NCBI RefSeq assembly: GCF_026151205.1
Contig: NC_087072.1
Span: 22,213,603 to 22,277,602 of the forward strand
DNA: 64,000 nucleotides
Direction of reading: 5' to 3'
Source: Bolinopsis microptera
Taxonomy: Eukaryota > Ctenophora > Tentaculata > Lobata > Bolinopsidae
The notes below the pieces were generated by a model. The model saw only the letters and a program-made list of their open reading frames with translations, did no database searches and was not told the DNA's origin. The first letter of the stretch is position 1, and the number at the start of each line of letters is the position of its first letter. The position numbers and the translations under genes are program-made. Of this stretch, positions 7,664-57,414 are shown one piece after another.

Positions 7664-23874
<16,211 letters not shown>

Positions 23875-29636: not shown

Positions 29637-32162
29637 CGGGGTAAAACGGACCACGGGGTAAAACGGACCAGGCCTGGGGTAAAACGGACCATAGCTGGGG
29701 TAAAACGGACCATTTCAATTTGACCTATTTAAAAGACACTATGTCTACTGTAGTGGTTGCCAGTGTATTTTACTTGTGTATTAGAACTAATGAAATGTAT
29801 ATACAGTCCTATTGTTGTGAAAAAGAGAGTTTATTGAATTGGGGTAAAACGGACCAAGTTAGTTTCATCAGCAAAAACTGCTTTGTCCAGCCTTATTTTG
29901 TTTCCTAGTTTGAAACTGTGTAATGGGCAAAGCACTGCAAATATTCTTGTACTGCATTTCATCACTAGGATGTTGAATTTTTGTTCCTAGTACAGTTTTT
30001 GTTGTGTTCAGTTTTTGTTGTTTACAGTTTTTGTTGTGTTCAATGGTTGTGTTGTCTTAAATGTGTCTTGAGCCGAAATGTTTCATGGATTCTACATCAT
30101 TGATTTGAAAGTAATTGTCGCAATCTAGTCTACTTTAACTTGACAAAGTATAGATAACATGAACAACCACAATTTCATTAGGTTAGGTATGCCACGAACA
30201 TATGTTCGTAAGAAGCCAGCTATTGACAAAGACAAGATGGTGGAAGCCTGTGATCAAGTGTTAAAAGGTAAAATGACGATATGTGCTGCTGCTAAACACT
30301 TTGAAGTCTCTAAAACAACCTTGCAAAGATGCCTTAAAGAACCGGGTAAGTTAGTTCAAGGTCGAAACACAGATCTAACTACAGCTGAGGAGGAGTATAT
30401 TGTATTAGCAATCCAATATTGCAGCGATCTTGGCTGGCCTCTGGGAATGGATCAAGTACTGGACCTTGTTGCTGAATATGTTAAATCGACAAACAAAGAG
30501 ACTAGATTCAAGAAAGGCAGGCCTGGGTATGAGTGGTTCACGGCATTCAAAAAACGTCATAAATCTGCTTTATCTATCAGGAAGCCAGAAACAGTAACAG
30601 CAGCACGAGCAAAGGGGCTTAGTCAGAATATTTTGGAAAAATTTTTCAGTATGTTCAAAAATGTGGTGACTACCAATGCAAATGGTCTTTTGAACAGTCC
30701 AACACGCATCTTTAACTTGGATGAGACTGGTCTCTCCACGGACCCTAAGTTGCATAAACTGTTTTTCCGAAAGGGTGTAAGGGACGCCCAAGCGATACTT
30801 CCAAGTGAGGGGAAGGCTATGTACACTGTAATGTTTTGTGTAAGCGCTGCTGGGGAGTATTTACCGCCTTATGTGGTATATAAAGCTAAGAACCTCCATA
30901 CCACCTGGATTACAGGAGGACCCCCCGGGACAGTGTATAATTGCACTAAAAGTGGCTGGATGGAAAGTATTGTCTTTGAATCATGGTTCATTGACCATTT
31001 CACACCGTTTGTGGAGGCAAGAACAAAACCTGTGTTGGTTGTGTTTGATGGTCACAATAGCCATTTGACGTACAACACTGTTAAGACAGCCAGGGATAAC
31101 AGTATTATGATTGTATGTCTACCACCGCACACCAGTGGGGCACTTCAGCCCCTAGATGTTTCTGTCTTCAAGAGTGCTAAAGCAGAATGGAGGAAAATTC
31201 TAACTAAATTCTTCTTCGAGTCACGACACGAAAAGGTAAAGAAGGAACACTTCCCCATATTGCTCAATGAGTTGTTTAAGCACATGGTAGCACACCCAGG
31301 AAATGCTGTTAATGGTTTTTCAAAGAGCGGATTATGTCCACTAGACATGAGTCGAGTTCCCCAATCAAAGATAACTCTTAGTGAGACCATGGAGCCTCCA
31401 GAGCCAGAGCAGACTGAGATTGTATCGTCATCAGTACCTGATCAGAACCCTGGCCCCTCCTCAGCAACAGCCCAGGTTACACCGTCCTCTTCAACCCTGG
31501 ACCAGAGCCCCTCTAGCTCTACCCATACTCTAAAAACCCCACTTACTCCTCGAAGTGCTCTACGAAATGCAATTGTGACGACATTAAAACCAAATCCCAG
31601 TAAGAGCACAATAAAGGCTTTAGAGCAAGGAAGAAAGGGACGTAAAAGGGTCCAAAAGAAAATAGGAGAATGTCTGACAGAGGAGGAATCATTGAAACGA
31701 CTGAAACTTGAAGAGGAGGAAAGGGCTAAGAAATCTGCTGCAAAGAAGATCAAAAACGATGACAGAACACTTGTAGAACCTACACCAAGAATTAAGAAAG
31801 GCAAAAAGCCCAAGGCTGCTCTAAAGAAGAAGATATTACTTGAACTTAGTAGTGACTCTGCAGAAGATAACTGCCCCGTCGTAGATTCTGATGACCTTAG
31901 CACTGGTGATTGTGAGGATGAAGATGTGGTAGTGCCAATTGAAGTGGGGTCTTATTACCTTGTCAAAATTGAGTTTGTCCGATCAAAACCACTTTATGCT
32001 TTAGCCAAGCTGACAGAGATAATAAATGACGCTTTTGTAAAGATGCAATTCTACAAAACAGTCCCTCTTGAAAAGAGATTGAAGTATGTTCCGTGGTCAG
32101 AGCCTGAATCAGGCCTCACCACTGCCACCACCCATGATCTGTTCTGGTGGAATGGGTGGTGA
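29637..32162 (+). mobile_element. Pogo-like (Tc1/mariner) DNA transposon, right end missing
   Basis: Five direct copies of GGGGTAAAACGGACCA (29637, 29655, 29676, 29697, 29841) precede a long transposase gene and look like a terminal plus subterminal repeat block. I find no inverted copy (TGGTCCGTTTTACCCC) to the right: the transposase frame instead runs straight into the tail of the interrupted retroelement. The left boundary falls at about 29628-29637, inside the reverse-transcriptase frame. Confidence 0.7.
30189..32162 (+). CDS. Pogo-family transposase (CENP-B-type HTH, DDE_1)
   Basis: Cut-and-paste transposase of the pogo/Tigger group. The ATG at 30189 (MPRTYVRKKP) resembles the usual start of the family better than the in-frame ATG at 30159. 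An N-terminal Psq/CENP-B-like HTH (about residues 10-55, AAAKHFEVSKTTLQRCLKEP) and a second DNA-binding HTH (about 60-135, GYEWFTAFKKRH) precede the catalytic core. Catalytic acids are NLDETGLS (about 178), VVFDGHNSH (about 288) and LQPLDVSVFKS (about 323), giving a DDD triad. The C-terminal ~270 residues are low-complexity Ser/Pro and Lys-rich. The frame is uninterrupted at 658 residues, so the protein may be functional although the right terminus of the element seems lost. Confidence 0.9.
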   Translation: MPRTYVRKKPAIDKDKMVEACDQVLKGKMTICAAAKHFEVSKTTLQRCLKEPGKLVQGRNTDLTTAEEEYIVLAIQYCSDLGWPLGMDQVLDLVAEYVKSTNKETRFKKGRPGYEWFTAFKKRHKSALSIRKPETVTAARAKGLSQNILEKFFSMFKNVVTTNANGLLNSPTRIFNLDETGLSTDPKLHKLFFRKGVRDAQAILPSEGKAMYTVMFCVSAAGEYLPPYVVYKAKNLHTTWITGGPPGTVYNCTKSGWMESIVFESWFIDHFTPFVEARTKPVLVVFDGHNSHLTYNTVKTARDNSIMIVCLPPHTSGALQPLDVSVFKSAKAEWRKILTKFFFESRHEKVKKEHFPILLNELFKHMVAHPGNAVNGFSKSGLCPLDMSRVPQSKITLSETMEPPEPEQTEIVSSSVPDQNPGPSSATAQVTPSSSTLDQSPSSSTHTLKTPLTPRSALRNAIVTTLKPNPSKSTIKALEQGRKGRKRVQKKIGECLTEEESLKRLKLEEEERAKKSAAKKIKNDDRTLVEPTPRIKKGKKPKAALKKKILLELSSDSAEDNCPVVDSDDLSTGDCEDEDVVVPIEVGSYYLVKIEFVRSKPLYALAKLTEIINDAFVKMQFYKTVPLEKRLKYVPWSEPESGLTTATTHDLFWWNGW

Positions 32163-33539: not shown

Positions 33540-36500
33540 TCATAGGAAAGTGTTGAAGTTTAAGTCCTGCCAGTTAATATTGTCAGGTTGGTGTTGAGCC
33601 TTCATGATAGAAAGCTTCAATCGGGATTTAATTGAACCTAGTGAACCTATTTTACCACGTGCATTTGACTGCTCAAGAAACCTATTCCATAAATTTGCCC
33701 CTTTATATGCGAAATTGTGAGATGAGTGTGGTGTCACAAATCTGTCATCTCTGAGCTCAGACTTCTTAAAGAGAGAATACATGGATATGGGCTGATGACT
33801 CTTCACTATCTTCATTGTTTCAGTAATGCATCTGTATCTATATATGTTATGTACTGTCATTAGTTCCTTAGATTGGAAAATAGGTTTTGTTGATTCTCTA
33901 GAGTGGAATTCTGCCCCAAGTATTTGGCAGCGATGTGGCCTTGCTTGTTTATCACCAGTCTTCCTCAAGCTGATACATATAGAACACGGTTTAATGTGAG
34001 GTATAGTTGATTCATTGGATATATGACCTTTCTTGTTTATACTGCACTGGATTGGCCTGCTACGAGAACAAGTTTTAAACTTGTCGCTAAATGCTTCCGA
34101 GTCCCCAAATAAGATTCGGACACATTTCTTCTGTGCAAGGAATAGTGGTGAAAGCTTATTAATTGATACACCACCCCATACAGTTATACCGTATCCTAGA
34201 TGAGATTCAAAAAGAGTGTGGTATATCTGTTTGTACAGCTGGCTGGGGAGGGAGTTTTTTATTCGATAAATACGGCCACATATGCTGTTTAATTTCTTAG
34301 TTAGTTTCTCGATATGAGGTGTCCAACTCAGTTTGTCATCAATAATTACACCTAGAAATTTCGTTTCAGTAACCTGTTTGATCGGGATCCCATCAATTTC
34401 TAGATTCAAGTCATTTTCAGTATTATCAATGGTCTTACGTTTAGTAGGCGAGAAGTACATGTAACAAGATTTTTTAACATTAATGTGCAGTAGGTTATGG
34501 CGCATATATTGGCACACAGAGTCGAGAATTTCATTCGCTATTTTGTATGCTTGTTCCTTAGTTTCAGCAGCTACAAAGATGTTTGTGTCATCTGCAAATA
34601 GTACAAATTTTCCTAATGTACTACATCTATAGATGTCATTTATATAGATAAGAAAAAGCAAGGGGCCCAAAACGGATCCTTGAGGTACGCCTAGTTTAAC
34701 TGGGAGAGGCTCTGATTCTTCACCAAGTACACTAACATACTGGTATCTATTATTTAGATAGCTGGAGAGCAGCTTTAGTGCGTTTCCTCTAACTCCGTAA
34801 TTACTAAGTTTCTTAAGTAGCATATCAAATGGTAAGGTATCAAATGCTTTAGAGAGATCGATAAATATTCCTAATACGTGGTTTTTATTATTCCGTTTTT
34901 CTTCGACGTGATTTACGGAGTAGTTAAGAGCATGACTTGTCGAGTGGTTTTTTCTAAAGCCGAACTGATTTTCGAATATTATTCCTCGAGATAAGAAAAA
35001 GTTGTATAATCTACTGTAAATAATTTTTTCAAATATTTTACCAAATACTGGTAATGTTGATACTGGCCTGTAATTCTCTAGTAATTCCTCATCTTCTTTT
35101 TTATATATCGGGGTTATCTTACCCGTTTTCAGTTGATCAGGGAAGACACCTTCCTTCATGCAGTTGTTATAAATTCTGGCAAGATGTTCTGATATAGTTT
35201 GACTACACTGCTTCATTACATGTGCCGGTATGTCGCTAGCTTTACCGTTATTAAATTCACTTATAATTTGTATTATTTCAGAGCTTGTACATTCAGCAAG
35301 ATAAATACTTGACGGACAGGACTGTGGCAAGTAGTCAGTGAATGATTTAGCAATTATAGGATCTTCATCAATCCTCCTCTCATAGACCTCGTTCAGATTG
35401 GAGGCGATTGACACAAAGTACTTGTTAAATTCATGAGCAATAACTCGTCGACAAATAACACGCTCATTGTTTATCATGAATGACGGTTTCATTTGCTTAT
35501 TTTGCTTTCCTCGCACTTTATTAATTAACTGCCAGGTTTTTTTACTGTCACCCTGACACTCCTCAATTTTGTTGCACGTGTAGAGGCGTTGAGCTAGTCT
35601 TATTACGTGTTTAACTCTCCTACGTTTGTCAGTAAAATTAGCATGCTTTTCCCTGGCATCATTACAAGGATTGCAGTGACAGGCTTCCTTGATCTCACGA
35701 CAAAGTTTACCTGGATTATGCAAACATTTTTCTCTCTTCGCTTTATGCCAGTGGTCGTGCAGCTCATGTTTTTTATTTATAGACGCGATTAATCCTCCTG
35801 TTATCCACGGATTTGTCATTGGCGTTCTTTTGGAGACTTTAGGTTTACTGAGTTTACATGATTTGTCTAGATTCGTTTTGAATGTGTCGTGAAATTCAAT
35901 AAAGTTTTTTGGTGGGTGCTCAGAGAAATGTTGGTTTAAGGATGAAACAAGGACTCGAACGTTGGATTCACTGTAATCATAATATTGGGTATGTTTAACT
36001 TGAGGTTCAGAGTTAGTTACAGCTAGGTCTTCAAAAATATGAAAAACTGGCAGATGATGCGAGATTCTGTCAGATACTGTACCTGAGGCAACAACCTTGT
36101 TTATATCATTTGTGTAAATGTTGTCAATACACGTTTGATTGCATCCCGGCTTCTCGTGCGTGTGTGTTGATATAAGAGGCGAGAAACCGGCACTAAACAT
36201 TATCTCCTCGAGATTGCTAACTTCTTTACTATTAACATGGAGGTTGACGTTAAAATCTCCCATTATATACGCAGATTTTTTAGGCAATATCTGGAGTATT
36301 CTAGATAGTTCTGTCAGGAAGCTTGCAAAATTACCGCTGGGTGGTCGGTAAATAACCCCAAAAGTTACTTCTTCTGAGTTTTTACGACTAGTTACGAATA
36401 GTGATTCTAAATTCTCGGTAACGTCTGACGCAAGTTCGTTCACAATACTGCTAAGTCTATCTTGAACATATAATGCTACACCAGTTCCTTTGGATTTATT

Positions 36501-37016
36501 ACCTACAGTATTCTGGTAAAAACTATTGTAGTTAGGAATTGAATACACGGTGCTTTCATCAGGACCTATGTTAGTTTCTGATAAACCTATTACGGTGAAG
36601 TTTTGGTTAATGCGGTGCAGTTCAGTTAATAGACTATCAAAATTGCTTTTATTGCCATCAATGTTAAGAAAGTAGGAGCTGGAAAACTTTTTAAGATTTT
36701 CTCCATGCGATGAGTTGATTTCATTAGCAGAATAAGCTTGGCATTTGTCTAAGATTGAGGATATTTTATATGTTTCGTCATGTGCATCTGGTGAGGTTGT
36801 GTCATCTACAAAGTGTTTGAAGGGATTATACTTGTGTACTATTTTATCTTTGCACGAAAAGCAGTAGAAGTTGTCATTAATAATTTGTGCTTTTGATTGC
36901 GAAAAACACTTTGAGTGGGCAATACAATTACATCTACTGCACTCAAACATCGGCTGACCTATGTAAACGTTTTTCAGGCAATGGTTACAGTTTTCTCTCA
37001 AAATTTTGTTGATCAT
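33540..37016 (-). CDS. LINE 1 ORF2: zinc module, APE endonuclease and reverse transcriptase
   Basis: Replication protein of the LINE, 1158 residues from the ATG at 37014-37016. Residues about 9-57 form a Cys/His-rich PHD-like module (CNHC, CSRC, H, C, CFSC). An apurinic-type endonuclease follows at about 115-345 with GLSETN, YRPPSG and GDFNVNL motifs and SDRISHHLP at its end. The reverse transcriptase spans about 600-860: FRKNHSTSHALN, FIDLSKAFDTL, GVPQGSVLGPLLF and the catalytic FADDTN at about 809. A C-terminal region with NLWNRF and a Cys-rich KPCSICISLRKTG segment ends the protein. The frame is unbroken and should be functional. Its start codon overlaps the ORF1 stop. Confidence 0.93.
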   Translation of the reverse strand: MINKILRENCNHCLKNVYIGQPMFECSRCNCIAHSKCFSQSKAQIINDNFYCFSCKDKIVHKYNPFKHFVDDTTSPDAHDETYKISSILDKCQAYSANEINSSHGENLKKFSSSYFLNIDGNKSNFDSLLTELHRINQNFTVIGLSETNIGPDESTVYSIPNYNSFYQNTVGNKSKGTGVALYVQDRLSSIVNELASDVTENLESLFVTSRKNSEEVTFGVIYRPPSGNFASFLTELSRILQILPKKSAYIMGDFNVNLHVNSKEVSNLEEIMFSAGFSPLISTHTHEKPGCNQTCIDNIYTNDINKVVASGTVSDRISHHLPVFHIFEDLAVTNSEPQVKHTQYYDYSESNVRVLVSSLNQHFSEHPPKNFIEFHDTFKTNLDKSCKLSKPKVSKRTPMTNPWITGGLIASINKKHELHDHWHKAKREKCLHNPGKLCREIKEACHCNPCNDAREKHANFTDKRRRVKHVIRLAQRLYTCNKIEECQGDSKKTWQLINKVRGKQNKQMKPSFMINNERVICRRVIAHEFNKYFVSIASNLNEVYERRIDEDPIIAKSFTDYLPQSCPSSIYLAECTSSEIIQIISEFNNGKASDIPAHVMKQCSQTISEHLARIYNNCMKEGVFPDQLKTGKITPIYKKEDEELLENYRPVSTLPVFGKIFEKIIYSRLYNFFLSRGIIFENQFGFRKNHSTSHALNYSVNHVEEKRNNKNHVLGIFIDLSKAFDTLPFDMLLKKLSNYGVRGNALKLLSSYLNNRYQYVSVLGEESEPLPVKLGVPQGSVLGPLLFLIYINDIYRCSTLGKFVLFADDTNIFVAAETKEQAYKIANEILDSVCQYMRHNLLHINVKKSCYMYFSPTKRKTIDNTENDLNLEIDGIPIKQVTETKFLGVIIDDKLSWTPHIEKLTKKLNSICGRIYRIKNSLPSQLYKQIYHTLFESHLGYGITVWGGVSINKLSPLFLAQKKCVRILFGDSEAFSDKFKTCSRSRPIQCSINKKGHISNESTIPHIKPCSICISLRKTGDKQARPHRCQILGAEFHSRESTKPIFQSKELMTVHNIYRYRCITETMKIVKSHQPISMYSLFKKSELRDDRFVTPHSSHNFAYKGANLWNRFLEQSNARGKIGSLGSIKSRLKLSIMKAQHQPDNINWQDLNFNTFL

Positions 37017-38905
37017 ACCTGACGACCATCAGGACTAGGTAAGCTTGCAACTTGCGATGATGTTAGCACGTTCTGTGTTCTGCTAGGGGTTCGGGTCCTC
37101 CTTCTCTTTTCAGCTCCTCTATTTAACCTGTTGAATATAGCTTTCTTAATAATAGCTGCAAATCGTTTAACACCAACCTCATTTAAGTGCAACAAATCAA
37201 GTCTACCGCGGTTATCAAGTTTCTTCGACAGCCTCTCAGACAGCAACATGTTGCGATCTAAGAAGTCATCGAGACCGCGGACATGTGATACACCCAAACC
37301 AGGCTGATCCAAATCACGGAATATACGTGAGTTAAAATACAAAGCTTTCTTATTAAGCTCGTTAGACTTAGTAGGCAGTATAGGAACAATGAAAATATTA
37401 GTACTACTATTGAACTGTCTAATTTCGTTAATTTTCAACTTATACTGCAGGAACAGTCGATCAATGTCCTCCTGACTTCTCACATCATTCTTTTTCAGAT
37501 TGTTGATACCACAAGATACTACGATGTTGTTGTAGCCACAGCACCACTCAGGCTTGATGTCCTCCATTGTAGCGGCCCAGAACCGTTGACCCGGCATCAG
37601 CTCACCAAACGAGTTCAGTTTACCAGTTCCAAAGGCTAGGTGGCCAGTATTAGAGTCGCCAACGATACATGTGGAGTTTCGATTCTTCCAACTGACTGAT
37701 CGAAAGGTCAGGCTGTATCGAACTCCTTTTTTCACAGAACCCTTCTCTATACGATGAGAGAAGAAGTCCTGTGACCGCCGAGTCATTCGGTACATTGATC
37801 TGTGGCTGCAGTCTAACTTGAGACTGTCAGTCTTAGAGCTTTTCTCAGCAAACAAGATCTCACAAGATTCACCCACTGTGATCGTAAAAATTGACGATTC
37901 GGGGTGGATAGTGATCTCATTATCTGAGTGTTCTGGAAGAAAGCTCTCCTGACCAACGTATCGATTGACCAAGCAGGAGTTGATAACTGGTGCTGCTCCT
38001 TTCTTCTTCAGCTCGGGATAGATCTTGTAGAACTCATCAGCCTGCATCTTATTGATCGACTCCACTAAGGGTTGCAAGGCTTCAGGAATGGTGGGCGGAC
38101 TGGTGGTCGCTTTTGACCCTACATAAGAATATGGATGGCCAAACGATTTCACTGAGTGACCATTCTCATCATTAAATTCAGTGGCTGTTAGGAAGTCAAC
38201 GATGGTCTGTGCAGCCTGTTCATTAATAAAATCGTTGATCATTGTTGCCGGGACCATACCGGATGGGACTGCAGGGGGCTCAAACACTAGATGCTCTGGA
38301 CGGGGAGGAGGCGTGGCAACATGTTCTGGTTGTGGGGTGGCCGTGGTTGATATGCTCTCGAGTTTTACTGATAAGGCCTTCAGCGTTGAATTGGTCTTAT
38401 CTTGTTGCAGATTTAAGTGCGTGAGACCTGTGCTTATTTCTGATAAGGCCACCACTCTCTCAGCAATCTGATTGTAGCTGCTACTAATCCTGTCGGTGTC
38501 TGCAATCAGAGAAGTTAGTCTATCCTCGAGAGAGGTTATCTGCTTCGTAAGCAAAGCATTGTCATCTGACAAGTTAGATATTCTCAGAATCAGACTGTCC
38601 GTTTGTGTGTTGTTGCGGGCTTCAACACCCGGTGGACTGAAGCAAAAGGGACACATCCAGTCGATAAGCTGTTCAACAAAAGTATTTGTAATACCCTTTA
38701 GGTTGGAACAGTTGCTGTGCCATTCCTGGGTGCAATTAGTACAAGAAAGAACCCAGGAGTCTGGGTCGTGCTGGCCACATGGACAGTTCTTAGGATTTGC
38801 TGGGGAGGGCTTCTTGGTGTTCTTCTTCTCCTTCTTCTTGTCCTGTACTTTAGATGGAATTCCTCCGAGGCTTGTTCGTTGTTTGTTGATAGCTTTGTTG
38901 GGCAT
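37013..38905 (-). CDS. LINE 1 ORF1: PHD finger, AlkB-like dioxygenase and SGNH hydrolase
   Basis: ORF1 protein of about 630 residues, started at the ATG at 38903-38905 (MPNKAINKQ). A PHD finger lies at about 41-88 (CPCG, CTNC, EWHSNC, CPFC), then a coiled-coil-like stretch at about 110-185. Residues about 216-404 form an AlkB-type 2-oxoglutarate/Fe(II) dioxygenase. It shows PYSYVGSK, NRYVGQ, the iron ligands in LPEHSDNE (His326, Asp328) and SHRI (His384), and RYSLTFR with the Arg pair that binds 2-oxoglutarate. An SGNH/GDSL-type hydrolase follows, with CIVGDSNTG (Ser417), CGINN (Asn468) and DLLHLN (Asp570/His573), then a basic tail. PHD and esterase modules are known in ORF1 of CR1-type LINEs; the AlkB domain is the surprise. 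Expected roles are RNA or chromatin binding plus oxidative demethylation, by inference. Confidence 0.88.
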   Translation of the reverse strand: MPNKAINKQRTSLGGIPSKVQDKKKEKKNTKKPSPANPKNCPCGQHDPDSWVLSCTNCTQEWHSNCSNLKGITNTFVEQLIDWMCPFCFSPPGVEARNNTQTDSLILRISNLSDDNALLTKQITSLEDRLTSLIADTDRISSSYNQIAERVVALSEISTGLTHLNLQQDKTNSTLKALSVKLESISTTATPQPEHVATPPPRPEHLVFEPPAVPSGMVPATMINDFINEQAAQTIVDFLTATEFNDENGHSVKSFGHPYSYVGSKATTSPPTIPEALQPLVESINKMQADEFYKIYPELKKKGAAPVINSCLVNRYVGQESFLPEHSDNEITIHPESSIFTITVGESCEILFAEKSSKTDSLKLDCSHRSMYRMTRRSQDFFSHRIEKGSVKKGVRYSLTFRSVSWKNRNSTCIVGDSNTGHLAFGTGKLNSFGELMPGQRFWAATMEDIKPEWCCGYNNIVVSCGINNLKKNDVRSQEDIDRLFLQYKLKINEIRQFNSSTNIFIVPILPTKSNELNKKALYFNSRIFRDLDQPGLGVSHVRGLDDFLDRNMLLSERLSKKLDNRGRLDLLHLNEVGVKRFAAIIKKAIFNRLNRGAEKRRRTRTPSRTQNVLTSSQVASLPSPDGRQV

Positions 38906-39711
38906 GGCGTAGAAAGGCGATAGGGGCACCAGGCTGACCAGAGGGCACTGTCACGTCCGACCCGCAACCGACCTGAAAATAAGAAGAGCAGAATCGCCAC
39001 ACAAGAGATCTCTGTTGAGAAAAAGTTGAATCAGAATTGTAAGGGAAGAATAATAGTTGTTATTTGAGTAATACAATCACAGGGCTAGTTAATTTACGGA
39101 CGAACACAACAGGACAGTTGTGAAGTAGTGATTGGTAAAGATGATTGTTTGAGTGCCTGATGGGATGTGTTAAAAATTGGAATGTAATCAATTGTCATAA
39201 TTGACATTAATTTAGGTATAAATTGATCAAAAAATACAATTGAATAAAAAGGTTATTATGGTTCAAATTTGTAAGACTATAATTTGTAAAATAAATGTTT
39301 TAAATGTATATATAATGCCCAATGTTGTTAAGACTCAACACTAGTACTAACAATAATCTGAGGGAAAGCAACAACATCAGATGTACCAATGAGTCCCAAG
39401 GAGATGATGTGGTCAGTATGTAAATATGGTGTGGTTGGTGTAGTTACAGAGACAACAGGTGTGGCGGGTACTCAACTCCTTAACAGGGCCGGAAGCAAGT
39501 CTTCTGATTTAGCGCCCTCCGATCCTCCATGGTGCCCCCGATGCCGTAACGTTTTAGTGACTCATTGGTACATCCATATCATTGCACATCCTCAAATTAT
39601 TTGTTATATAGTAGTGTTGAAAGTATTAAAACTAATAATAGCCTTTACTAACCTTAGAACCGCAGCATAACCGCTTTTCCCACAGGCAAATAACACCTTC
39701 CGCAGGAAACT
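38906..39711. other. Upstream region of LINE 1
   Basis: Probably the LINE 5' UTR and flank. The segment at about 39583-39645 (CTCAAATTAT.TGTTATATAG, then TTGAAAGTATTAAAA) recurs upstream of the second LINE at 57530-57575. No gene recognised. Confidence 0.45.
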
Positions 39712-40030
39712 AACACGCTCACAGGCTCCCACATGACGTGTAACCCCAGGATTTGGTTTTGGATCGGACACTTAAAACAACGATAGAGGAACGGTCTACA
39801 CGCTCACAGACTACCACGTCTTGTGTAACCCCAAGATTTAACACGCTCACAGGCTACCACGTCTCGTGTAACCCTAGGATTTAACACGCTCACAGGCTAC
39901 CACGTCTCGTGTAACCCTAGGACTCTAACACTTAACAGACTCTAACACGCTCACAGGCTTCCACGTCTCGTGTACCCTAGGATTTGGTTTTGGATCTGAC
40001 ACTCAAAACAACGATAGAGGAGCGGTCTAC
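39712..40030. repeat. ~43-bp degenerate tandem repeat
   Basis: Five units beginning ACACGCTCACAGGCT and containing CCACGTCTCGTGTAACCC, three of them nearly contiguous and the first and last followed by a shared GGATTTGGTTTTGGATC extension and CAACGATAGAGGA(A/G)CGGTCTAC. Noncoding. Confidence 0.85.
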
Positions 40031-41412: not shown

Positions 41413-42235
41413 ACTAATACCGTAGTTACGTTTTTCAAAATTGTCCCACATTAAAATTTTGGCGCGAGCGTGCTAAATCACTTAACAGTCGATTTTCAAG
41501 ATTGTTCGAGAAGGGCCCCCGACTGTTGAAACCAGCTTGAATCGATGTATTTTCGGACGCTGATTACGAATCAGCCCCATGACATAGGGTTACAATACTC
41601 CCCTGGCGAGATATTGGCGAAAACCTGTCTCAATCACGTAATATGACCGTATAAGGAAGTGTGTATAATTTCTCGTTATGGTTAGAGTTTCAGCATATGT
41701 TTTTGTTAGGGATTGTGTTAGTGGTTGATACATGTTTCGTATCCCACCCTTCGGCGGTGCGCGCTTCGCGCGCGAAAAGTGGCATGCAACGTATGTCAAG
41801 TTAGTGGTTAGGGTTAAGGTTGGGATCAGATTAAAGGGTTAAGATTTCGAATAGTCGTTCAGGGCCAGCTTGTAGCGCGATGCACTACTGGGTCGCGCGC
41901 GCATCAAATAATGCTTCTCGCAACCACAGATCGTATGCAGATCGGCGAGATGCGAAGGATTGACATCGTGAATCAAAATGTATAGTAGAGTAATTCATCA
42001 TCATCCGATTTGGCGCCCCCTAAAATGCGTATATTTCGAAAAGAAAGCGGCGCGTGCGCTAGTAAAATTAAATGGATATTATACCCGTCAAATAACGGTG
42101 TGACACAATTTTAAAATTTTTGAAATGAACTGCAACCATGCGCTGGCTACTATTCGGAAAAAAGCGCGCCGCAGTGCTACTTCGAAAAATGTCGACGCTT
42201 ATCATCCGACAAACATGAATACGCGATGTACTACT

Positions 42236-44998
42236 GGTAAAATACTTGAGAAAATTATATTCTCCAGGCTTTACAGTTTCTTCCAGTCGCAAGGATTATT
42301 ATATGAAAATCAATATGGCTTCAGAAAAAATCATTCGACAAGCCATGCACTTAACTTCTCTGTCGACTACATTGAAAAATCACTAAGAGATAAAAATCAT
42401 GTACTAGGCATCTTCATTGATTTAAGTAAAGCTTTTGATACAATCTGTCATGATAAACTGCTTAAAAAACTGAATGATTATGGAATTCGAGGGACTGCAA
42501 ATAAATTAATAGCCAGTTACCTCTCTAATAGGCAGCAATATGTTTCAGTACTTGGAGAAGAATCCGAAAAACTGTCTGTAATATTTGGTGTGCCTCAGGG
42601 GTCAGTATTAGGTCCCTTGCTTTTCATTATCTACATCAATGAAATATATAGAGTATCAGACCTAGGTAAGTTTATACTTTTTGCCGATGACACCAACATA
42701 TTTGTTGTAGATAAATGTATAAAAACACTTTACTGCAAAGCTAACAAAATTCTTAAACTTGTTCATCAATATATGAAGAGTAACTTGCTGCATATCAACA
42801 CAAAGAAATGTTGTTATATCCACTTTAAGCCGAACTGTAGAAATGAACCAGATTCAAACACTAATGAATTAGAACTGACACTGAATAATATAATAATTAA
42901 AAAGGTAGAGGAAACTAAGTTTCTTGGAGTCATTATTGACCAAAAACTGAACTGGGATGCTCACTTGAGAGCGTTAAATCGTAAATTGAAATGTGAGATT
43001 GGTAGACTATGTGGAATCAGACGCTGTGTACCTAAAACACTCTATAAGGACCTGTACCACACCCTTTTTGAATCACACCTATGTTATGGAATATCTGTTT
43101 GGGGAGGTGTATCAAATAATAAACTAGAAGCCATATTTAAAACACAAAAGAAATGCATAAGAATTCTCTTTGGTGATAATGATGAGTACTTCAATAAGTT
43201 CAAAACATGTGCCAGAGTAAGGCCTATCACTAGGGATAAGACCGGTAAAGTTATCAAGCAGATGTTAGGCAAAGATTTCTTTGAACTAGAACACAGTAAA
43301 CCAATCTGTAACGAGTATAACTTCCTGACTGTCCACAATCTTCATAATATAAGTTGCACTGTTTACTGGAAATGTTTAAAATTAATAAGTTCCAATCACC
43401 AGTCTCAATGTTCTCTTTATTCAACAGGTCACCAAGACGAGACAACTACTTCATCCCACCCACTCCGTCCTCACTATTCATCTACCAATCAACCAGTATT
43501 TGGAATCACTGCCGTAAGTCAACGAGTGAAATAGACTTCTCCACTCCTATCAGTATATTCAAGAATAATCTTAAGAAAGCTTTGTTAGAACTACAATCTA
43601 AATATGACAGACAACTATGGTGCAGTTACAACTTTGATGCAAATGAATTATCATTGAAATAGGTTAATTAACTAAACTTAATCATATGAGTAAACCACGG
43701 TGTTATTGCAAAGAACCATGACAAGGGTATCAGACCTATATATTAATCTAAGAGACGAAACAAAACGAATCATCATACAACAAATTTTAAAATCCTGCGG
43801 CACAGGATCCTGTTGTTTTCCTACTCTGCCTCTCCCAAACCCCTCTCCTTCCCCTTTCTTCAGGTTTATTCTTCAATTTTTTAAATTAGATAGCAGATAT
43901 ATTTTCTTTCGAATTAGTAATGGCATTATACATTATTTGGTATCGTATGTATGTTGTGTTTAGTGTTTGCTAACTAGGTATGTGCTGTATATTTTGAAGA
44001 ATTTTGAGGCTCACGACGTCTCGTCCCATGGGTTGAGTTGTAAGCTGAGTATATGTTCAAATCGCCTTACTTCGTATGGTGAAACATCGACAGGTTTGCC
44101 TTGACCTTTCGGACGAGTGTTTGCCCACCGGGGATCAAAAAATATGATCACCATGAACATTACTTTGACACGTGAACTTATCAAACGACTGTAATGATTC
44201 CATTAAATTTTCTTAGTATATTTAGCTAGTTTATAGTAGATACACACGATCACAGAATAGAAGAGCACAATTGGGCTCTTTGTTCTGCGACCGTGTTTCC
44301 TCGGTGGGCCGACAGGTTTTTGTTGTGTAGTAGTGCTGGGGAAAAAACACGCTTTAAATATCAATGAATGTAAATATTGTTAATTGACATTAGTGCCACA
44401 GTTTATGTGGTAAAAACAAATTTATGGTCAAACATTATATATCGTAGAAGGGCATGATTTACCCACATCACTAAGCATCTGGATGGATAATTAGCACACA
44501 AGGATAAACTGACCTTTAAACATGACCACCAGCTATACCACGTAATCATAGCTCCAAAATAAATAAATTGCTCTACATAGAAACATCTGGCCTGATCTTA
44601 TCACATTGTGGTCCCCTGGGGTTCGGTAAAGCCCTTACAGGCAACTGGGTCCTTTTACCAGCCACAATAAAACTAGTCATGCCAGTACTGTCATAAACTG
44701 TAACCAACTATTTAAAAATAAGATATCTTTTGCTAGAATTTTACATTTTAAGCCATAGAGCAATCTTCTCAATTTTAAAATTTAAAAATAACATTTTACC
44801 CTAACTATGATGTGGTGGCATTTCATACTTAACTAAAATTCAACTTTGAAAGTCAATAGATTATTAGTCACAATGAAATTATAGTTTAAGACATCCATTT
44901 TGCATTGTGTTTCCAATATTAGAATTTATGATATGTATTGATTGAATAATTGGTAATAAATTTAACTTTTGTTTTATTAAAAACTTTTGTTTTATTAC
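42236..44998 (+). pseudogene. 5'-truncated LINE 2 copy, inverted relative to the full element
   Basis: Plus-strand copy of the second LINE starting abruptly within the reverse transcriptase (GGTAAAATACTTGA at 42236). It runs through the catalytic FADDTN (about 42680), the stop near 43662 and the whole 3' UTR to two copies of an AACTTTTGTTTTATTA tail (44963-44997). Relative to the minus-strand copy, an extra AATAT at about 43345 breaks the frame after LTVHNLH, and the C-terminus continues in another frame (from about 43370 to 43662). Protein identity with the full element is very high, so the copy is recent. It is dead because of truncation and the frameshift. Confidence 0.92.
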
Positions 44999-46551: not shown

Positions 46552-49100
46552 CTATTTCAATGATAATTCATTTGCATCAAAGTTGTAACTGCACCAAAGT
46601 TGTCGGTCATATTTAGATTGTAGTTCTAACAAAGATTTCTTAAGATTATTCTTGAATATACTGATGGGAGTGGAGAAGTCTATTTCACTTGTTGACTTAC
46701 GGCAGTGATTCCAAATACTAGTTGATTGATAGATGAATAGTGAGGATGGAGTGGGTGGGATGAAGTAGTTGTCTCGTCTTGGTGACCTGTTGAATAAAGA
46801 GAACATTGAGACTGGTGATTGGAACTTATTAATTTTAAACATTTCCAGTAAACAGTGCAACTTATGAAGATTGTGGACAGTCAGGAAGTTATACTCGTTA
46901 CAGATTGGTTTACTGTGTTCTAGTTCAAAAAAATCTTTGCCTAACATCTGCTTGATAACTTTACCGGTCTTATCCCTAGTGATAGGCCTTACTCTGGCAC
47001 ATGTTTTGAACTTATTGAAGTATGCATCATTATCACCAAAGAGAATTCTTATGCATTTCTTTTGTGTTTTAAATATGGCTTCTAGTTTATTATTTGATAC
47101 ACCTCCCCAAACAGATATTCCATAACATAGGTGTGATTCAAAAAGGGTGTGGTACAGGTCCTTATATAGTTTTTTAGGTACACAGCGTCTAATTCCACAT
47201 AGTCTACCTATCTCACATTTCAATTTACGGTTTAACGCTCTTAAGTGAGCATCCCAGTTCAGTTTTTGGTCAATAATGACTCCAAGAAACTTAGTTTCCT
47301 CCACCTTTTTAATTACTATATTATTTAGTGTCAGTTCTAATTCATTGGTGTTTGAATCTGGTTCATTTCTACAGTTCGGCTTAAAGTGGATATAACAACA
47401 TTTCTTTATGTTGATATGCAGCAAGTTACTCTTCATATACTGATGAACAAGTTTAAGAATTTTATTAGCTTTGCAGTAAAGTGTTTTTATACATTTATCT
47501 ACAACAAATATGTTGGTGTCATCGGCAAAAAGTATAAACTTACCTAGGTCTGATACTCTGTATATTTCATTGATGTAGATAATGAAAAGCAAGGGACCTA
47601 ATACTGACCCCTGAGGAACACCAAATATTACAGACAGTTTTTCGGATTCTTCTCCAAGTACTGAAACATATTGCTGTCTATTAGAAAGGTAACTGGCTAT
47701 CAATTTATTTGCAGTCCCTCGAATTCCATAATCATTCAGTTTTTTAAGCAGTTTATCATGACAGATTGTGTCAAAAGCTTTACTTAAATCAATGAAGATG
47801 CCTAGTACGTGATTTTTATCTCTTAAAGATTTTTCAATGTAGTCGACAGAGAAGTTGAGTGCATGGCTTGTCGAGTGATTTTTTCTAAAGCCATATTGAT
47901 TTTCATATAATAATCCTTGCGACTGAAAGAAACTGTAAAGCCTGGAGAATATGATTTTTTCAAGTATTTTACCGAATATCGCTAAGGTTGAGATAGGCCT
48001 GTAATTTTCAAGAAGCTCAGCATTTTCTTTCTTATATATTGGACTTATTTTACCTACTTTTAGGTCGTCTGGAAAAAATCCCTGTTGCATACATTCGTTG
48101 TACAATACCGATAGTAGTGGGCTAATTTTGCCTGATACTGCCTTTACTATATGTACTGGTATGTCGCTAGCCTTGCCATTCTTAAGTTCCGATATGATCT
48201 TAGCCACCTCCTCAGGTGAGCAGTCATGTAGATATATATTAGCTGTATTCGATTTAGGTAAGAAGTCACAGAAACTTGGAAGCTGATTTATTTGTATCTC
48301 TCCTAGTTCTGTGTAGGCTGCATTAAGGTTAGATGCTAGGGATACAAAATACTTATTGAATTCATTAGCTATAACTCTGCGATCAGTTATCTTTTCATTG
48401 TCTATGGTAAATATAGGTCTGATATCACGTTTCTGTTTGCCACGAATTTTATTTATCAGTTCCCAGGTTTTCTTGGAATTTCCCTGAGTTTCAAGAAACT
48501 TGTCAGAATAATATTCAGATACAGCTTTTTTACGAACCTTTTTTAGAGCCTTTCTATATTCTTTGTAGTCATCATAACGGTTTCTTTTATTACAGCAGAT
48601 AGAACACAGGCATGTGCCCCCTTTTGTGTCAGTTTCGCCTTGTTTACACTTAACTTTCCTGACTTTCGCCCAGTCATCATACAGCCCATGGCAGTGGTTT
48701 ACTGAGGCTATAATCCCGCCAGTAATCCATGGGTTGTTCTGGATAGTGCGCTTAGTGGTTTTGGGTACAGCTAGTTTGCAGGTTTCGTCAATGCTGTTTT
48801 TAAAGATATCATGAAAGTTAGTAAAATCTATAATTGGTTCATTGTCTAGTTTGTTACCCAAGACTTCAGCAAATTTATCAGTGTTTGATTTACAATAGTC
48901 ATAATATTGAGTGTGCTTGTGAATATTTTTGGTCTTGCTAATTTCCCAGTCAAATATTGTAAATATAGGGAGGTGATGAGATATGTGATCAGTTATGACT
49001 CCAGAGGCAGTAACAGAGTCTAGGTCATTTGTAATGATGTTGTCGATGCACGAGGCATTACATCCAGGCTTTTCATGAGTTGCTAATGATATCAATGGAA
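46552..49100 (-). CDS. LINE 2 ORF2, 3' portion: end of endonuclease and reverse transcriptase
   Basis: Continues ORF2 from the LTR-element insertion point to the stop at 46552. It begins inside the endonuclease (THEKPGCN, CIDNIITND, DHISHHLP with the SDH-type active-site His) and holds a Cys-rich linker (about 48600, CLCSICC). The full reverse transcriptase has FIDLSKAFDT, GVPQGSVLGPLLF and FADDTN near 47527. The C-terminal region has SIWNHC. There is no stop or frameshift. It has no start codon of its own, so it is non-functional while separated from the 54507-55336 part. Confidence 0.9.
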
Positions 49101-49105
49101 AGAAG

Positions 49106-49238
49106 TTTTAATTCAATAAAGTGAGACAGTAACACTAGTGGATGATAGAAACATAAACTTCAAACGAGGAATACAAATCAAGTCAGACAAAGCCTCCTGG
49201 AGTTTCTGCCATCCTGTAAATGGTATATAAGATTAACA
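49106..49238 (-). repeat. Copia element 3' LTR
   Basis: 133 bp, identical by eye to the 5' LTR. An AATAAAG word (49115-49121 on the plus strand) is present in both. Confidence 0.93.
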
Positions 49239-50062: not shown

Positions 50063-53000
50063 CTAGTCCCTCTCAAAACACATACGCAGACTTTGAGAAC
50101 TAGGCCCTCTCTTAGTCAAAACATCAGCAGGCATCGTCCTTGAGGGCATAAAGTTAACAGTTATTTCACCCTTCTCGACCATTTCCCTTAGTGATGCCAT
50201 GGTAACTATCAGTCTTTTTTCAATGGGGTCCTTTGTCTTCTGTACAAGCTCTAGAAGTCCTTTATTGTCAATAAAACAGTCTATGGTCACATTTAAAGAA
50301 TCTCCCAGTATTTGTTGTAGTGTTTGCTGAATAAAAATGGTGTGATCAGCCGCTTTCAGGAGTGCAAGGCTTTCAGCGGCTAAAGTACTGTAACAGACTC
50401 TGTCCAACTTTACAGATTTCCAACAGACAGGGTTTTTGACTCTACCATCTTTATCCGAAATAAGTATCAGATACCCACACTGACTACCATTGTTACTAAG
50501 ATTTCCAAACGATGCATCACTGTATGTAAGTAGTCTTACTCCATTCTTTATGTTAGGCAGTTCTCTGAAGGTCAGTGGGGCATCTTCATCAGTTTTAAGC
50601 TTTTTGACTATCTTGTTGTGAAGCATTATGTCTGAGACGTTGGGATCTTTCAGATTATTGCTCAACTGACAAGCATCAAACGAAATATCTGGTCTGGTTT
50701 GGACAGATAACCAGATAAGTTGTCCAACACCTGATCTGTACTGTACATACTCTTCGTGAGTCAGAGCATGTGTTTTCTGGCTTCTTCTGTTACTTGATAG
50801 TCCTATGGTCTTTAAAGCACTGATATAATCTGACTGTCCAACAGTGATTTCATATGAGATTGGATCTTGTTCCACCTCAAGTCCAAGATATGTGAATCGC
50901 GATGCTTCCTGTGACTTAATCTCAAATCCATGCAGCACATCTTTGTGAATATTAGACTCAAAACCTTTGGTCCCTGCATAGATGAAGTCATCTACATGTA
51001 CAGTCATTATTCCTGCAAGATCTTCTTTGTCAACTCTTGAAAAGAACAGAGCATCATCATATAAACATTTCCTTAAACCAGCTTGTTCACTGTGGTCTTT
51101 TACATTTCTGTACCACATCTTTGCAGCATCTGACAGTCCATAAACACATTTGTTCAGCTTCCACAGTATTCCTGGTTTATAGCATTCCTTTGGAGGGGTA
51201 AGATAAACTAGTCGCTCAATTGGTTTACCTTGTAGAAATGCTGAGGTTATATCAAGAGAATGAATAGGCCACTTCATTGATGCTGCTACTGTGAATAGAA
51301 GTCTTAGAGATTCTTTTCGACAAGTAGGACTGACTCTTTCGGTACTATCAAGAGGAATTTCCTCAAAACCTCGAGCTACCAAACGGGCCTTTTTCTTATG
51401 ACCATTGTCATTTGTGACCCACCTTGTCGAAATGGGGACAAACTGATCATCTACTTCGTGAGCCTCAACCTCTTCATACACATTGTTTTGCTTCCATTTT
51501 TCGATTTCGTCAGTCTTCTGTGACTTATAGGGGTCAGTGTTTAACACTTCGATACTGACCTTCTTCTTCTCATACTTTGACTTAGCTTTGCAGAACTTCT
51601 GCTCCTTTGTAGACATTGATTCCTCTACATTAGTTTCGTTGCTTTGTGGTATATTATCTGTGCTTACAGTATTATTATCATCCTCTTCAGCAGGAGCAAT
51701 ATCGAAAGCGTTCAACAGAACATCATTTTTCAGCATTTGAGTTGCATTGTAAAATTCTTCAACAGTGGGATTAGGCTCATCTGGTGGATCGGTCCCACTT
51801 ACTTCGGAAACATCTTTTGAGTACAGTTCATTTACATTGACAACATGAATCCGGTGGCATCGAACAATATACCCACCATGTCTTACAACTACAACTTTCT
51901 TGTCCACACCTATAACTGTTCCTGGTCCTCGCCATCGCTTATCATCATTTCTTTTGTAGTATACCATATCACCCGACTGTATCTCATCAGTGTACACTTC
52001 TCTAGTTTTTGATCTAATGGCTCGTCTGATCATCTCACTAGCTTCGCTTTCCATCATTCTTTTTCGAGCACTGTAGATGGCAGAGATGTTCTTGGCAACA
52101 GTTTCACTTGGACTCTCATCTTCAACAATCGTTGGACTAGCATAGGGATCATCAATAGAAGTGAGAGATGGATTTTTGCCAAAGATTAACTGATATGGCG
52201 AGAAACCATTCACATTTGCCAAAGTGTTCTTGGCATGACAGGCCCATGCTAAAGCAACTTCAACTGAGCATTTAGTATCTTCCATGATCTTTATCATACT
52301 GTTAGACAAAAGGGCATGGTGCCGTTCTACAAGGGCATTGCTCCAAGGTGCTTCAGCTCCAGTAGTGATGATATGAACGTTGAATTTCTCACAGAGGTCA
52401 ACAAAACTTTTGTTAACATATTCCCCTCCATTGTCACTCATGAACTTCTTCGGTGGTCCAAAAGTGTTGATCCAGTGTGTAAAAACACTTTCCACAATGG
52501 TTTCCTTGTCTTTTGACCTGATAACTTTTGCAGCAGAGAATCTGGTTTTATGGTCAATCATGTGCTGGATGTAAATGTTTTTATTCTTGTCGTACACCTT
52601 AATATCCATGGCAACGGTATCATTGAAGTCTTTGGCTAAAGGCATACAGACTACTGGACGATTATTCGGTCGCTTGTATCTCTTGCACACATCACAGTTA
52701 GACGATACTGTGTCAATCTCTCGAGCAATTTCCTTGGTAAGCTGTCCTGCTGTTCTTAAGAGTGACTTTAACTTTTCAGGTGGGGGATGGGCGAATTGCT
52801 TATGTAGCTTAATCACTATCTTTCTTTTGTCAGTACTTTCCATGGTCAGGTTTACAATTTCCTCTCCTGATTTACATAAGCAGACTTGTTGATGGATAGT
52901 ATTCTTGCTCAGAGGGATGCTACAGTGTCCTGATTCATTGAAGATGATTTTCTGCTTTACACCAAAAGCCTTCACTGTGTCATCTCCAAAGTCCAATACC

Positions 53001-54368: not shown

Positions 54369-54501
54369 TTTTAATTCAATAAAGTGAGACAGTAACACTA
54401 GTGGATGATAGAAACATAAACTTCAAACGAGGAATACAAATCAAGTCAGACAAAGCCTCCTGGAGTTTCTGCCATCCTGTAAATGGTATATAAGATTAAC
54501 A
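54369..54501 (-). repeat. Copia element 5' LTR
   Basis: 133 bp, identical by eye to the 3' LTR, followed on the plus-strand right side by the AGAAG target duplication. Confidence 0.93.
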
Positions 54502-54506
54502 AGAAG

Positions 54507-55336
54507 CCTCTACTAAATAGGACATCTTCATACTGTGCAATAATGCTACTGTGGTTACTATGGAGATTAATGTTAAAATCACCTGCAATGTGTGTATGTT
54601 TTGGTGCTTTATCAAGTATTGACGACAGTTCTTGGAGAGCTTGCTCAGCATTGCCACTTGGAGGGCGGTATATTACTCCTATAGAAGTAGAATTTCCTAG
54701 ACTACCTATAGTTACAAAGAGGGTTTCTAGATTTTCTGTTACTTGTGAAAGGTTGTTATTTTTGACAGCATTGAAGGAGTTCAGGACATATAGAGCTACT
54801 CCTGAGCCTTTTACTTTCGAGTCGAAGGTATCTTGATAGAAGCTCTCATAGCCTGTGAGTTCGTACAAGTTTTTCATTTCAGGGCCTACATTCGTTTCAG
54901 CAAGACCAATTACAGAGAATTTGTTAGTAAACCTAGCTATTTCAATTGCCAGCGAGTCAAAGTTTGATTTGTTGCCATCAAGATTTTGAAATATTAGTGA
55001 GTTTTGCACTTGTAATTCGTTAGCAAAGGTGCGGTTTATGTCTTTTACAGAATATGAGTCACAGCTTTCAAGTACCTCAGAGATTTTACGTATTACATCA
55101 TCTGCATCAGTGTTGTCATCATTGTCATCATTCAGAAGCTTAAATGGGTTATAACGGTTTACTGCTAGGTGGATACAATTATTGCAGTACAAGTCAACTT
55201 TTTTATTTTGTTTGTCACTGGTGTTAAAACATCTAGAGTGAATGGGACAATTACAGTGGTAGCATTCAATTATAGATTGACCTAAGTAAATACTTTTTAA
55301 ACAGTGGGCACAGACCTCTTTTTTAAGAACATTCAT
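54507..55336 (-). CDS. LINE 2 ORF2, 5' portion: Cys/His module and start of APE endonuclease
   Basis: Starts at the ATG at 55334-55336, overlapping the ORF1 stop. A Cys/His-rich PHD-like module (CAHC, CYHC, H, C, CNNC, residues about 9-55) is followed by the endonuclease with NLDGNKSNF, GLAETN, GVALYV, YRPPSG and GDFNINL. The frame then runs into the copia LTR, adding a short foreign tail before a stop at 54446. Equivalent to residues 1 to about 276 of ORF2. Confidence 0.9.
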
Positions 55337-57414
55337 GCTGGAGGCTGATAGCCTTCAACATGAGGCTGTCCTCCGGCGGCATGAGAATAAAGTGTTGAAC
55401 CAACCTTACCGTCCCTCCTCCCCCTCTTCCTCCTATCAGTCCCTCCATGCATCCTAACAAGGACAGTATTACGGATTAAAGTAGCAAGTTTGGCCACTCC
55501 CTTCCAATTAAGGTGCAGGTAATCCGTTCGGCCATATCTGTCAAACTCCCTGGACAAGGTTAGGCAAAGTAAGCCAGTGTTATTGTCAAGGAAGTCATCA
55601 AAGCCATCAACGAACTGGACACCAAAGTTTTTGGGGAGTAGCTCACGACGAATAAGTTCTATAAAGTAAAGAACTTTCCTATTTAAATCAGCATTTCGAG
55701 TTGGTAAAAGAGGACAAAGAAATACTTGGGCAGTTGGATTGGCCTCTTGAATTTGCTCAATCTTGAATTCTAGATGACTAAATATAGCAAAAATTTCACG
55801 CTGAGATTTAACAGATGGTCTTCTAACATCATTTATACCACACATAATAACAATGTTCTTGTATCCACATGCAAGATATGGGTTAATGTCATCTATTGTA
55901 GGAGTCCAAACATTCCGACCAGGCAGCCACTTACCAAAGCTCCTTTTGTGATCCTCTCCAAATTTCATACCTGCTCCATTTGAATCAGAGAAGATACAAG
56001 TACTGGCACGATTCTTTCCATCTATTGATCTGAAGGTGAAACTATATCGTACTGCACCAGTGACTGACCCCTTCTGGATAGAGTGCTTGTAGTGAGCCTG
56101 ACTCCTTCTGGTCATCCTGTAAACTGATCTTGGAGTACACTTGTGCGTGTGAACTGGGTTGTTCATTTCAGTGAAGAGGACTTTGCATTCACCTCCAATG
56201 GAAAGAGTCAATATGCTAGACTCTGGATGTATCACCGGTTCATTGTCTGAATGTTCAGGCAGATAACCCTCGCCTTCTTCATAGCGGTTGATCAACACGC
56301 TATTCATTACAGGGTTTCCTTCTGCACAGAACTCCTCATTGATTTTCAGGACAAGTGCAGCAATTTTATCAGGGATCTCCACGGTTTTCTTATTCTCATC
56401 TCTGGATCCGCTATACTTGTACTTCTCTCCAAAAGAACATACTGAATGCCCATTCTCCTGACTGAACTGAAGAGATTCGCAGTATTGGAGAAGGTCTGAT
56501 TCAGCATCACTGTCGATGAATTCTTCCACGGTGTCTACCACAGGTTTTTCCTCATGTTTAAAGGTGGTCTTTGATAGAAGGTGCTTATCATTTAATGCAG
56601 AACCAGATGATGGCTGATCATGAGGAATTGTCGTCTGTTGGGAAGATAGTTGGTCTAGAGACTGCTTGATTCCCTTCAGTTCAAGAGAAATATGCGGTTC
56701 CTGCCGAGTATGTTCATCAAGCTGGTCTATGATATCATGTATCAATTTCTCAGTGTCAAGCTTGGGAGCAGTAGATGAGACAAGACCTTTGGTGGAAAGA
56801 TCTGTGATTTGTTTCTGAAGGTCTTTAATAGCCTTTTTGACACCACTTACATCTTCACTTAGTTCTCCTTTACAATGGTCTTCTATGTTTTTGACTCGGT
56901 TTTGATGGTCTTTCAAACCATGTTCATTGGTTAGCAGGTGTTGCATGTGAAGGTCGAGGTTTTGGATCACCTGGATCGACTCTTTCATTTTATCAACATC
57001 AATTGTTGACAGTGATTTCGTCAAGGTTTCTATGTCCTTGAGATTCTGACAGGCAGAGTGCACCTCATAATCACTATTGGACTGTTGTAGACTCAAGGTG
57101 TTCCGACATTTGTAGCAGAAGTTGTCGTATGAGATATCTTTGATGGTGGTTGGTACGGGTGCAACGTAGCAAAATGGACATAACCACTTTTCCAGCTTCA
57201 TTATTGACGGCTTCGTGATACCCTTAAGTCCCAGACAATCTGCATGCCAGTTCTGTTTGCATCCTGTGCATATTAGCTTGAAGCTTCCAGCATTCGATTG
57301 GCTGCATGGGCATTTATCAACATTATGATGCTCTTTTTTAGCGGTTGGCCCTGTTCCTGTCACAGAGCCTCGTCTATTTCCGGTAGATGGTGTTTTTATA
57401 CCTGTACCTGACAT
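55333..57414 (-). CDS. LINE 2 ORF1: PHD finger, AlkB-like dioxygenase and SGNH hydrolase
   Basis: About 693 residues from the ATG at 57412-57414 (MSGTGIKTPS). PHD finger at about 35-82 (CPCS, CTGC, NWHADC, CPFC) with an extra CYKC pair at about 100; coiled-coil-like region about 125-260. The AlkB-type dioxygenase at about 293-464 has YKYSGSR, NRYEEG, LPEHSDNE (His388, Asp390), YKHSIQ (His444) and RYSFTFR (Arg456, Arg462). SGNH hydrolase: CIFSDSNG (Ser478), CGINDV (Asn528), DYLHLN. A basic tail (RRKRGRRDG) follows. Outside the active-site blocks it differs a great deal from LINE 1 ORF1, yet every expected catalytic residue is kept. That suggests the domain is maintained by selection in the lineage. 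Uninterrupted. Confidence 0.88.
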   Translation of the reverse strand: MSGTGIKTPSTGNRRGSVTGTGPTAKKEHHNVDKCPCSQSNAGSFKLICTGCKQNWHADCLGLKGITKPSIMKLEKWLCPFCYVAPVPTTIKDISYDNFCYKCRNTLSLQQSNSDYEVHSACQNLKDIETLTKSLSTIDVDKMKESIQVIQNLDLHMQHLLTNEHGLKDHQNRVKNIEDHCKGELSEDVSGVKKAIKDLQKQITDLSTKGLVSSTAPKLDTEKLIHDIIDQLDEHTRQEPHISLELKGIKQSLDQLSSQQTTIPHDQPSSGSALNDKHLLSKTTFKHEEKPVVDTVEEFIDSDAESDLLQYCESLQFSQENGHSVCSFGEKYKYSGSRDENKKTVEIPDKIAALVLKINEEFCAEGNPVMNSVLINRYEEGEGYLPEHSDNEPVIHPESSILTLSIGGECKVLFTEMNNPVHTHKCTPRSVYRMTRRSQAHYKHSIQKGSVTGAVRYSFTFRSIDGKNRASTCIFSDSNGAGMKFGEDHKRSFGKWLPGRNVWTPTIDDINPYLACGYKNIVIMCGINDVRRPSVKSQREIFAIFSHLEFKIEQIQEANPTAQVFLCPLLPTRNADLNRKVLYFIELIRRELLPKNFGVQFVDGFDDFLDNNTGLLCLTLSREFDRYGRTDYLHLNWKGVAKLATLIRNTVLVRMHGGTDRRKRGRRDGKVGSTLYSHAAGGQPHVEGYQPPA

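Follow-up and report, generated by a model that had tools for sequence, protein, structure and literature searches.

The esterase-type open reading frame 1 (ORF1) of long interspersed nuclear elements (LINEs) was reportedly first described by Kapitonov and Jurka in 2003. A survey of 448 Jockey-superfamily elements sorts their ORF1s into RRM, CCHC, PHD, Tnp22, CC, zf/lz and esterase types, with no AlkB type in the portion of the survey available and with the esterase type restricted there to two vertebrate groups (PMC4120745); transposon esterases are reported from many animal phyla (PMC3905857). AlkB-type enzymes ordinarily remove methyl groups from DNA or RNA that has been damaged. A retrotransposon AlkB protein is described from Phalaenopsis, where it has N6-methyladenosine (m6A) activity in vitro (PMC9289625). 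Here we describe, in a 64,000-nt stretch of the genome of the ctenophore Bolinopsis microptera (NC_087072.1, positions 22,213,603 to 22,277,602; hereafter the window, to which all coordinates refer), a two-ORF LINE (copy 1, about 33540-38905, minus strand, both ORFs open) whose ORF1 carries an AlkB-type 2-oxoglutarate/Fe(II) dioxygenase domain between a PHD finger and an SGNH hydrolase.

The ORF1 of copy 1 (37013..38905, minus strand, 630 aa, its start ATG picked by reference to the relative P0001) encodes a PHD finger, a predicted coiled coil, the AlkB domain and the SGNH hydrolase, in that order. The AlkB domain occupies residues 215-407 (37685..38263, minus strand) and matches PF13532 with an E-value of 4.8e-13 and 50.2 bits, where the cut-off is 31.2; a second copy in the window, copy 2, also exceeds that cut-off (55.6 bits). 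An earlier note, made from the letters alone, had placed an AlkB domain at 37694..38260 (residues 216-404, minus strand), and this call is borne out both by the profile score and by the fold, since the AlphaFold2 model, compared by VIA-align, has the double-stranded beta-helix of AlkB proteins. The active site named in that note, an HxD motif, a distal His and a 2-oxoglutarate (2OG) Arg pair, likewise holds up: the iron ligands H326 and D328 (37922..37930), the distal ligand H384 (37754..37756) and the RxxxxxR motif with R396 and R402 (37700..37720), all on the minus strand, are near-invariant alignment columns and, judged by alignment and predicted strands, appear to lie at the cofactor site. 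Two residues after D328 comes E330 (37916..37918, minus strand), which is aligned with a Glu of ALKBH2 and, by its H-x-D-x-D/E spacing, is the equivalent of the base-contacting D135 of Escherichia coli AlkB. The setting given in that note, a LINE ORF1 with a PHD finger before AlkB and an SGNH hydrolase after it, agrees with the domains found and with an endonuclease and reverse transcriptase in ORF2. The function proposed there, repair or demethylation of the element's own RNA or cDNA or removal of a host m6A or 1-methyladenosine mark, is an inference. We regard the domain call and its LINE ORF1 setting as nearly certain. Neither copy reaches the 231.05 bits required for the E. coli-type AlkB equivalog TIGR00568: copy 2 reaches 14.2 bits, and copy 1 gives no match at E<=1.

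Three public protein searches gave 210, 52 and 122 matches (120, 52 and 120 listed); the listed matches comprise 250 distinct proteins, which were aligned with both window copies for residue counts (252 rows, rows gapped at a site being set aside). The hand-picked alignment A1 consisted of copy 1, 60 of the 120 proteins listed by the first search and copy 2 minus its first Met; fragmentary proteins, fused gene models and P0001, which is nearly identical to copy 1, were excluded. A2 consisted of five hand-picked divergent proteins. Because regular expressions missed divergent members, active-site residues were counted by alignment columns and PHD fingers by a family profile. Conservation of the iron ligands is almost complete (H326 in 246 of 247 rows, D328 in 247 of 247 and H384 in 247 of 248), as is that of E330 (246/247) and the 2OG arginines (R396 in 246/248, R402 in 246/247); a changed iron ligand or R402 is confined to the rows P0243, P0234 and P0181. 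These six residues are among the 19 of 192 AlkB columns conserved at 98.5% or more. The hydrolase residues are kept to a similar degree (S418 in 246/246 rows, N468 in 244/244, D570 in 236/241 and H573 in 241/242). One relative is ∼97% identical to the copy 1 ORF1, and its 20 differences leave the catalytic residues untouched. Mean pairwise identity is 0.54 for the PHD finger, 0.51 for AlkB and 0.51 for SGNH, against 0.29 for the coiled coil (92 of 139 rows covering all domains). Between copies 1 and 2, first, second and third codon positions differ at 41%, 36% and 69% of AlkB codons and at 60%, 56% and 71% of coiled-coil codons, which indicates purifying selection. Because DNA was at hand for the two window copies only and third positions, and with them synonymous sites, are saturated, we quote this pattern rather than a ratio of nonsynonymous to synonymous rates.

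The AlkB and SGNH domains appear to travel together. Their distances correlate with a Pearson coefficient of 0.85 over 222 rows (the single domain pair computed), as expected if the two were inherited as one unit. Among the rows in which AlkB is preceded by 120 residues or more, the family profile finds a PHD finger in 169 of 198 and not in the other 29, some of which may be truncated or mis-started; 20 of these 29, chosen by hand because they were the clearest cases, group at three positions in a FastTree tree (midpoint root), so that the PHD finger probably went through more than one loss or gain. The constant core of this ORF1 family is AlkB with SGNH. By its protein sequences, the AlkB-bearing lineage is a diverse one, with identities among relatives falling to about one third, and it is probably old. 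Mnemiopsis leidyi is the only animal named among the matches listed, where two records carry the names of bacterial metagenome-assembled genomes (P0116, Saccharospirillaceae; P0147, Moritella); we infer that these two are contaminating contigs. No relative turned up in viral contigs, scanned with the alignment of ORF1 as well as with ORF1 and ORF2 themselves, or in genome contigs, scanned with the alignment.

The explanation that we favor, with about an even chance of being right, is that the AlkB domain in ORF1 demethylates Watson–Crick faces of the element's RNA or cDNA, at 1-methyladenosine (m1A) and 3-methylcytidine (m3C), and thereby spares reverse transcription. The ORF1 protein (ORF1p) oligomer would coat the element RNA, and its AlkB domain, using Fe(II), 2OG and O2, would remove m1A and m3C methyl groups from that RNA or from new cDNA; this would keep reverse transcription by the ORF2 protein (ORF2p) from stopping. 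With the enzyme positioned along the RNA as part of ORF1p, ORF2p could more readily complete the cDNA. Both m1A and m3C in a template block reverse transcription. A template 1-methylguanosine can also do so, and AlkB relieves the block (PMC7968990). The domain may in addition give ORF1p a structured nucleic-acid contact, since the esterase-containing ORF1s of RepBase are reported to lack an RRM and any other structural domain for RNA binding (PMC3905857). The mechanism taken as a whole is about evenly balanced between holding and failing, and the broader proposal, that this diverse animal LINE lineage carries an ALKBH2/3-type template-repair enzyme that would clear methylation blocking reverse transcription before or during copying, falls somewhat short of that.

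As for the substrate, m1A and m3C, as for ALKBH2/3, seem to us likelier than m6A, because the best PDB matches of the family profile are ALKBH2 and then ALKBH3 (best 60 of 126 matches) and because E330 is kept. The corresponding residue of ALKBH3, two after its iron-ligand Asp, is presumably also acidic. In E. coli AlkB, D135, two after D133, lies near N6 of the m1A base, and the D135I change gains m6A activity (PMC7968990); the available text of a review (PMC11431407) gave no match to the residue terms sought. Several points weigh against our reading. E330 alone is compatible with other substrates, and sequence is no certain guide to the substrate; copy 2 searched alone matches ALKBH2 best (2.9e-4), followed by ALKBH8 (0.023) and ALKBH6 (0.028), with ALKBH3 absent from its 30 matches at E<=10; and the VIA-align fold ranking ties ALKBH2, ALKBH3 and ALKBH6 within 1 Z unit. 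The active-site correspondence comes from sequence alignment and placement in predicted strands rather than from superposed coordinates, and relatives were recruited with AlkB-bearing queries, so that the presence of AlkB among them is partly ascertainment, although the identity of its residues is not. ALKBH1, ALKBH4, ALKBH7, ALKBH8 and FTO are not in the best 50 VIA-align rows, which excludes nothing.

The same evidence bears on the possibility that the domain is instead an m6A eraser, stripping m6A from element or host RNA so that host control of RNA is evaded; such a role has been suggested for the AlkB of orchid Ty3/Gypsy elements. This seems improbable, given that the profile matches ALKBH2/3 with no ALKBH5 in the best 60 of 126 PDB matches, and that 246 of 247 rows retain the acidic residue where AlkB has D135; it is weakened further by human L1, in which m6A favors retrotransposition and ALKBH5 suppresses it (PMC7873242). 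A similarly low probability attaches to the idea that the AlkB fold persists mostly because it binds RNA or cDNA within the ORF1p particle, standing in for an RRM, with catalysis secondary. The reported lack of structural RNA-binding domains in RepBase esterase-containing ORF1s (PMC3905857) and RNA binding by the orchid element's AlkB (PMC9289625) favor such a binding module, but retention of iron ligands and 2OG arginines in >99% of rows is not expected from binding alone. We also think it unlikely that the enzyme acts on target DNA or cDNA (e.g. 3-methylcytosine or 1-methyladenine) or that the PHD finger directs it to a chromatin protein where the element inserts: the top match, ALKBH2, repairs double-stranded DNA (PMC9921365) and the PHD profile matches the PHDs of BPTF, DIDO1 and PHF2/PHF8, but in the 29 of 198 rows where the PHD finger is not found AlkB-SGNH is retained. 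Finally, although capture of foreign ORFs by retroelements is known (PMC5408684), a captured host gene fragment that is a mere passenger in the element is hardly credible, being contradicted by conservation: two divergent window copies and nearly all 250 relatives keep an intact active site, and the codon pattern is one of purifying selection.

The rest of copy 1 has the layout of a non-LTR LINE (one without long terminal repeats, LTRs). The PHD finger of ORF1 (C4HC3, residues 41-88, 38642..38785) is below the Pfam cut-off and has a profile match to the BPTF PHD (5e-4); it precedes a long predicted helix, by predicted secondary structure a probable coiled coil (residues 106-188, 38342..38590), whose predicted local distance difference test scores are modest (38-83 over 10-residue blocks), and AlkB sits between this helix and the esterase. 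Coiled-coil family matches of the ORF1 (NCBIfam) are weak; these, with many weak PDB rows, we judged to be composition matches and set aside. The SGNH/GDSL hydrolase (residues 410-595, 37121..37678), identified by VIA-align and alignment columns, has the catalytic S, N and H (S418, N468, H573, with D570) of an esterase-type (Type IV) ORF1. ORF1 and ORF2 overlap in an ATGA (37013..37016), as also in copy 2. The end of ORF1 reads CAGGT-ATGA (window 37000-37045), of which the CAGGT part is absent in copy 2, and 32 of the 250 ORF1 relatives end in -GCQV despite a variable preceding tail; possible reasons are a signal in the nucleotides, either for reinitiation or resembling a splice donor (CAG|GTATGA), and a peptide motif at the C-terminus. 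ORF2 (33540..37016, 1158 aa) begins with a PHD-like Cys/His finger (36852..36989) whose pattern is common to both copies and for which a Pfam search gave no PHD match; it resembles the PHD with which ORF2 of L2 subgroup 5 probably starts (PMC4120745). It continues with an APE-type endonuclease (residues 118-306, 36099..36665; PF03372, E 4e-5, 23.9 bits, just under the cut-off of 24.5) and a reverse transcriptase with FADD present (residues 639-892, 34341..35102; PF00078, 5.5e-37); RNase H is not among its Pfam matches at E<=0.1. All these features are on the minus strand. Upstream of ORF1 are an inverted-repeat pair ∼285 bp across with 78% identity (39335-39620) and a 43-bp tandem repeat of 3.1 copies (39798-39931), possibly a small inverted-repeat element and 5′ untranslated region repeats, respectively.

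Copy 2 has an ORF1 of 693 aa with the same architecture (55333..57414, minus strand; PF13532 1e-14, PF00628 1.1e-5 and PF13472 9.5e-6, the last, for the GDSL hydrolase, below its cut-off), which tblastn aligns with residues 112-629 of copy 1 at 37% identity. Its ORF2 is interrupted in the endonuclease region by a Copia insertion that separates the N-terminal part (54446..55336, minus strand) from the remainder with the reverse transcriptase (46552..49095, minus strand). The Copia-type LTR element (50063-54355, minus strand) has a single open 1430-aa frame (RVT_2, rve) and is flanked by identical 133-bp terminal-like repeats (49106-49238 and 54369-54501), consistent with a recent insertion. A third copy retains the reverse transcriptase part only (42125..43534, plus strand) and is 94% identical to copy 2 in DNA over 2,774 aligned bases. 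Elsewhere in the window are an open frame of 667 aa for a DDE_1 transposase that has a Psq-type helix-turn-helix (30159-32162, plus strand) and for which pogo/Tigger-like is our own naming, and a reading frame for a MATE-family transporter that may be a host gene (9141-10610, plus strand).

Some of the ORF1 relatives are already named ‘AlkB’ by automatic annotation, so the domain is visible in databases, yet as far as we could find it is undescribed in LINE ORF1s: among the matches listed, the open-access literature (Repbase and subscription papers lay outside the search) held no description of an AlkB or other 2OG oxygenase in LINEs. The papers matched on krill, tubeworm and cnidarians deal with ALKBH2 as a host gene. 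On the sequence evidence this is a LINE ORF1 with a captured, long-maintained domain of the demethylase type; if the domain is indeed a conserved demethylase, this would be the first animal retrotransposon known to us to carry one. Such an element may mend its RNA or DNA copy in the course of transposition. With it one could test genetically and directly whether methylated bases in retrotransposon RNA or cDNA hold back reverse transcription in living animals, and in a class of ORF1 proteins for which no structured contact to nucleic acid has been reported, the domain may supply one.

Compared with described systems, the element resembles Type IV (esterase) LINEs of the CR1/L2 kind, whose ORF1 usually has a coiled coil, in having an SGNH esterase ORF1 upstream of an APE-type endonuclease and reverse transcriptase ORF2 (PMC4120745; PMC3905857), and PHD fingers are common in CR1/L2 ORF1s (PMC4120745); unlike the Type IV ORF1s tabulated in that survey, it places AlkB before the esterase and combines PHD and esterase in one ORF1. 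Its AlkB domain has human ALKBH2 and ALKBH3 as best profile and among the best fold matches, and shares H-x-D-x-E, the distal H and RxxxxxR in the alignment with ALKBH2, whereas those stand-alone host enzymes are only ∼21% identical to it over ∼171 residues (VIA-align). The orchid Ty3/Gypsy elements (paALKBH5-like, PMC9289625) are likewise retrotransposons with a captured AlkB and intact cofactor residues; those are LTR elements of a plant, a lineage in Phalaenopsis with a separate ORF for an ALKBH5-type m6A eraser, whereas the window LINE is non-LTR, has AlkB fused inside ORF1, appears ALKBH2/3-like and belongs to a diverse lineage. Plant positive-strand RNA viruses also carry AlkB with all essential residues in an RNA-replicating genome, with RNA protection proposed, but unlike the LINE do not reverse transcribe (PMC544882). 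Our reading would show recurrent capture of AlkB by unrelated RNA-replicating elements: plant viruses, orchid Gypsy elements and LINEs.
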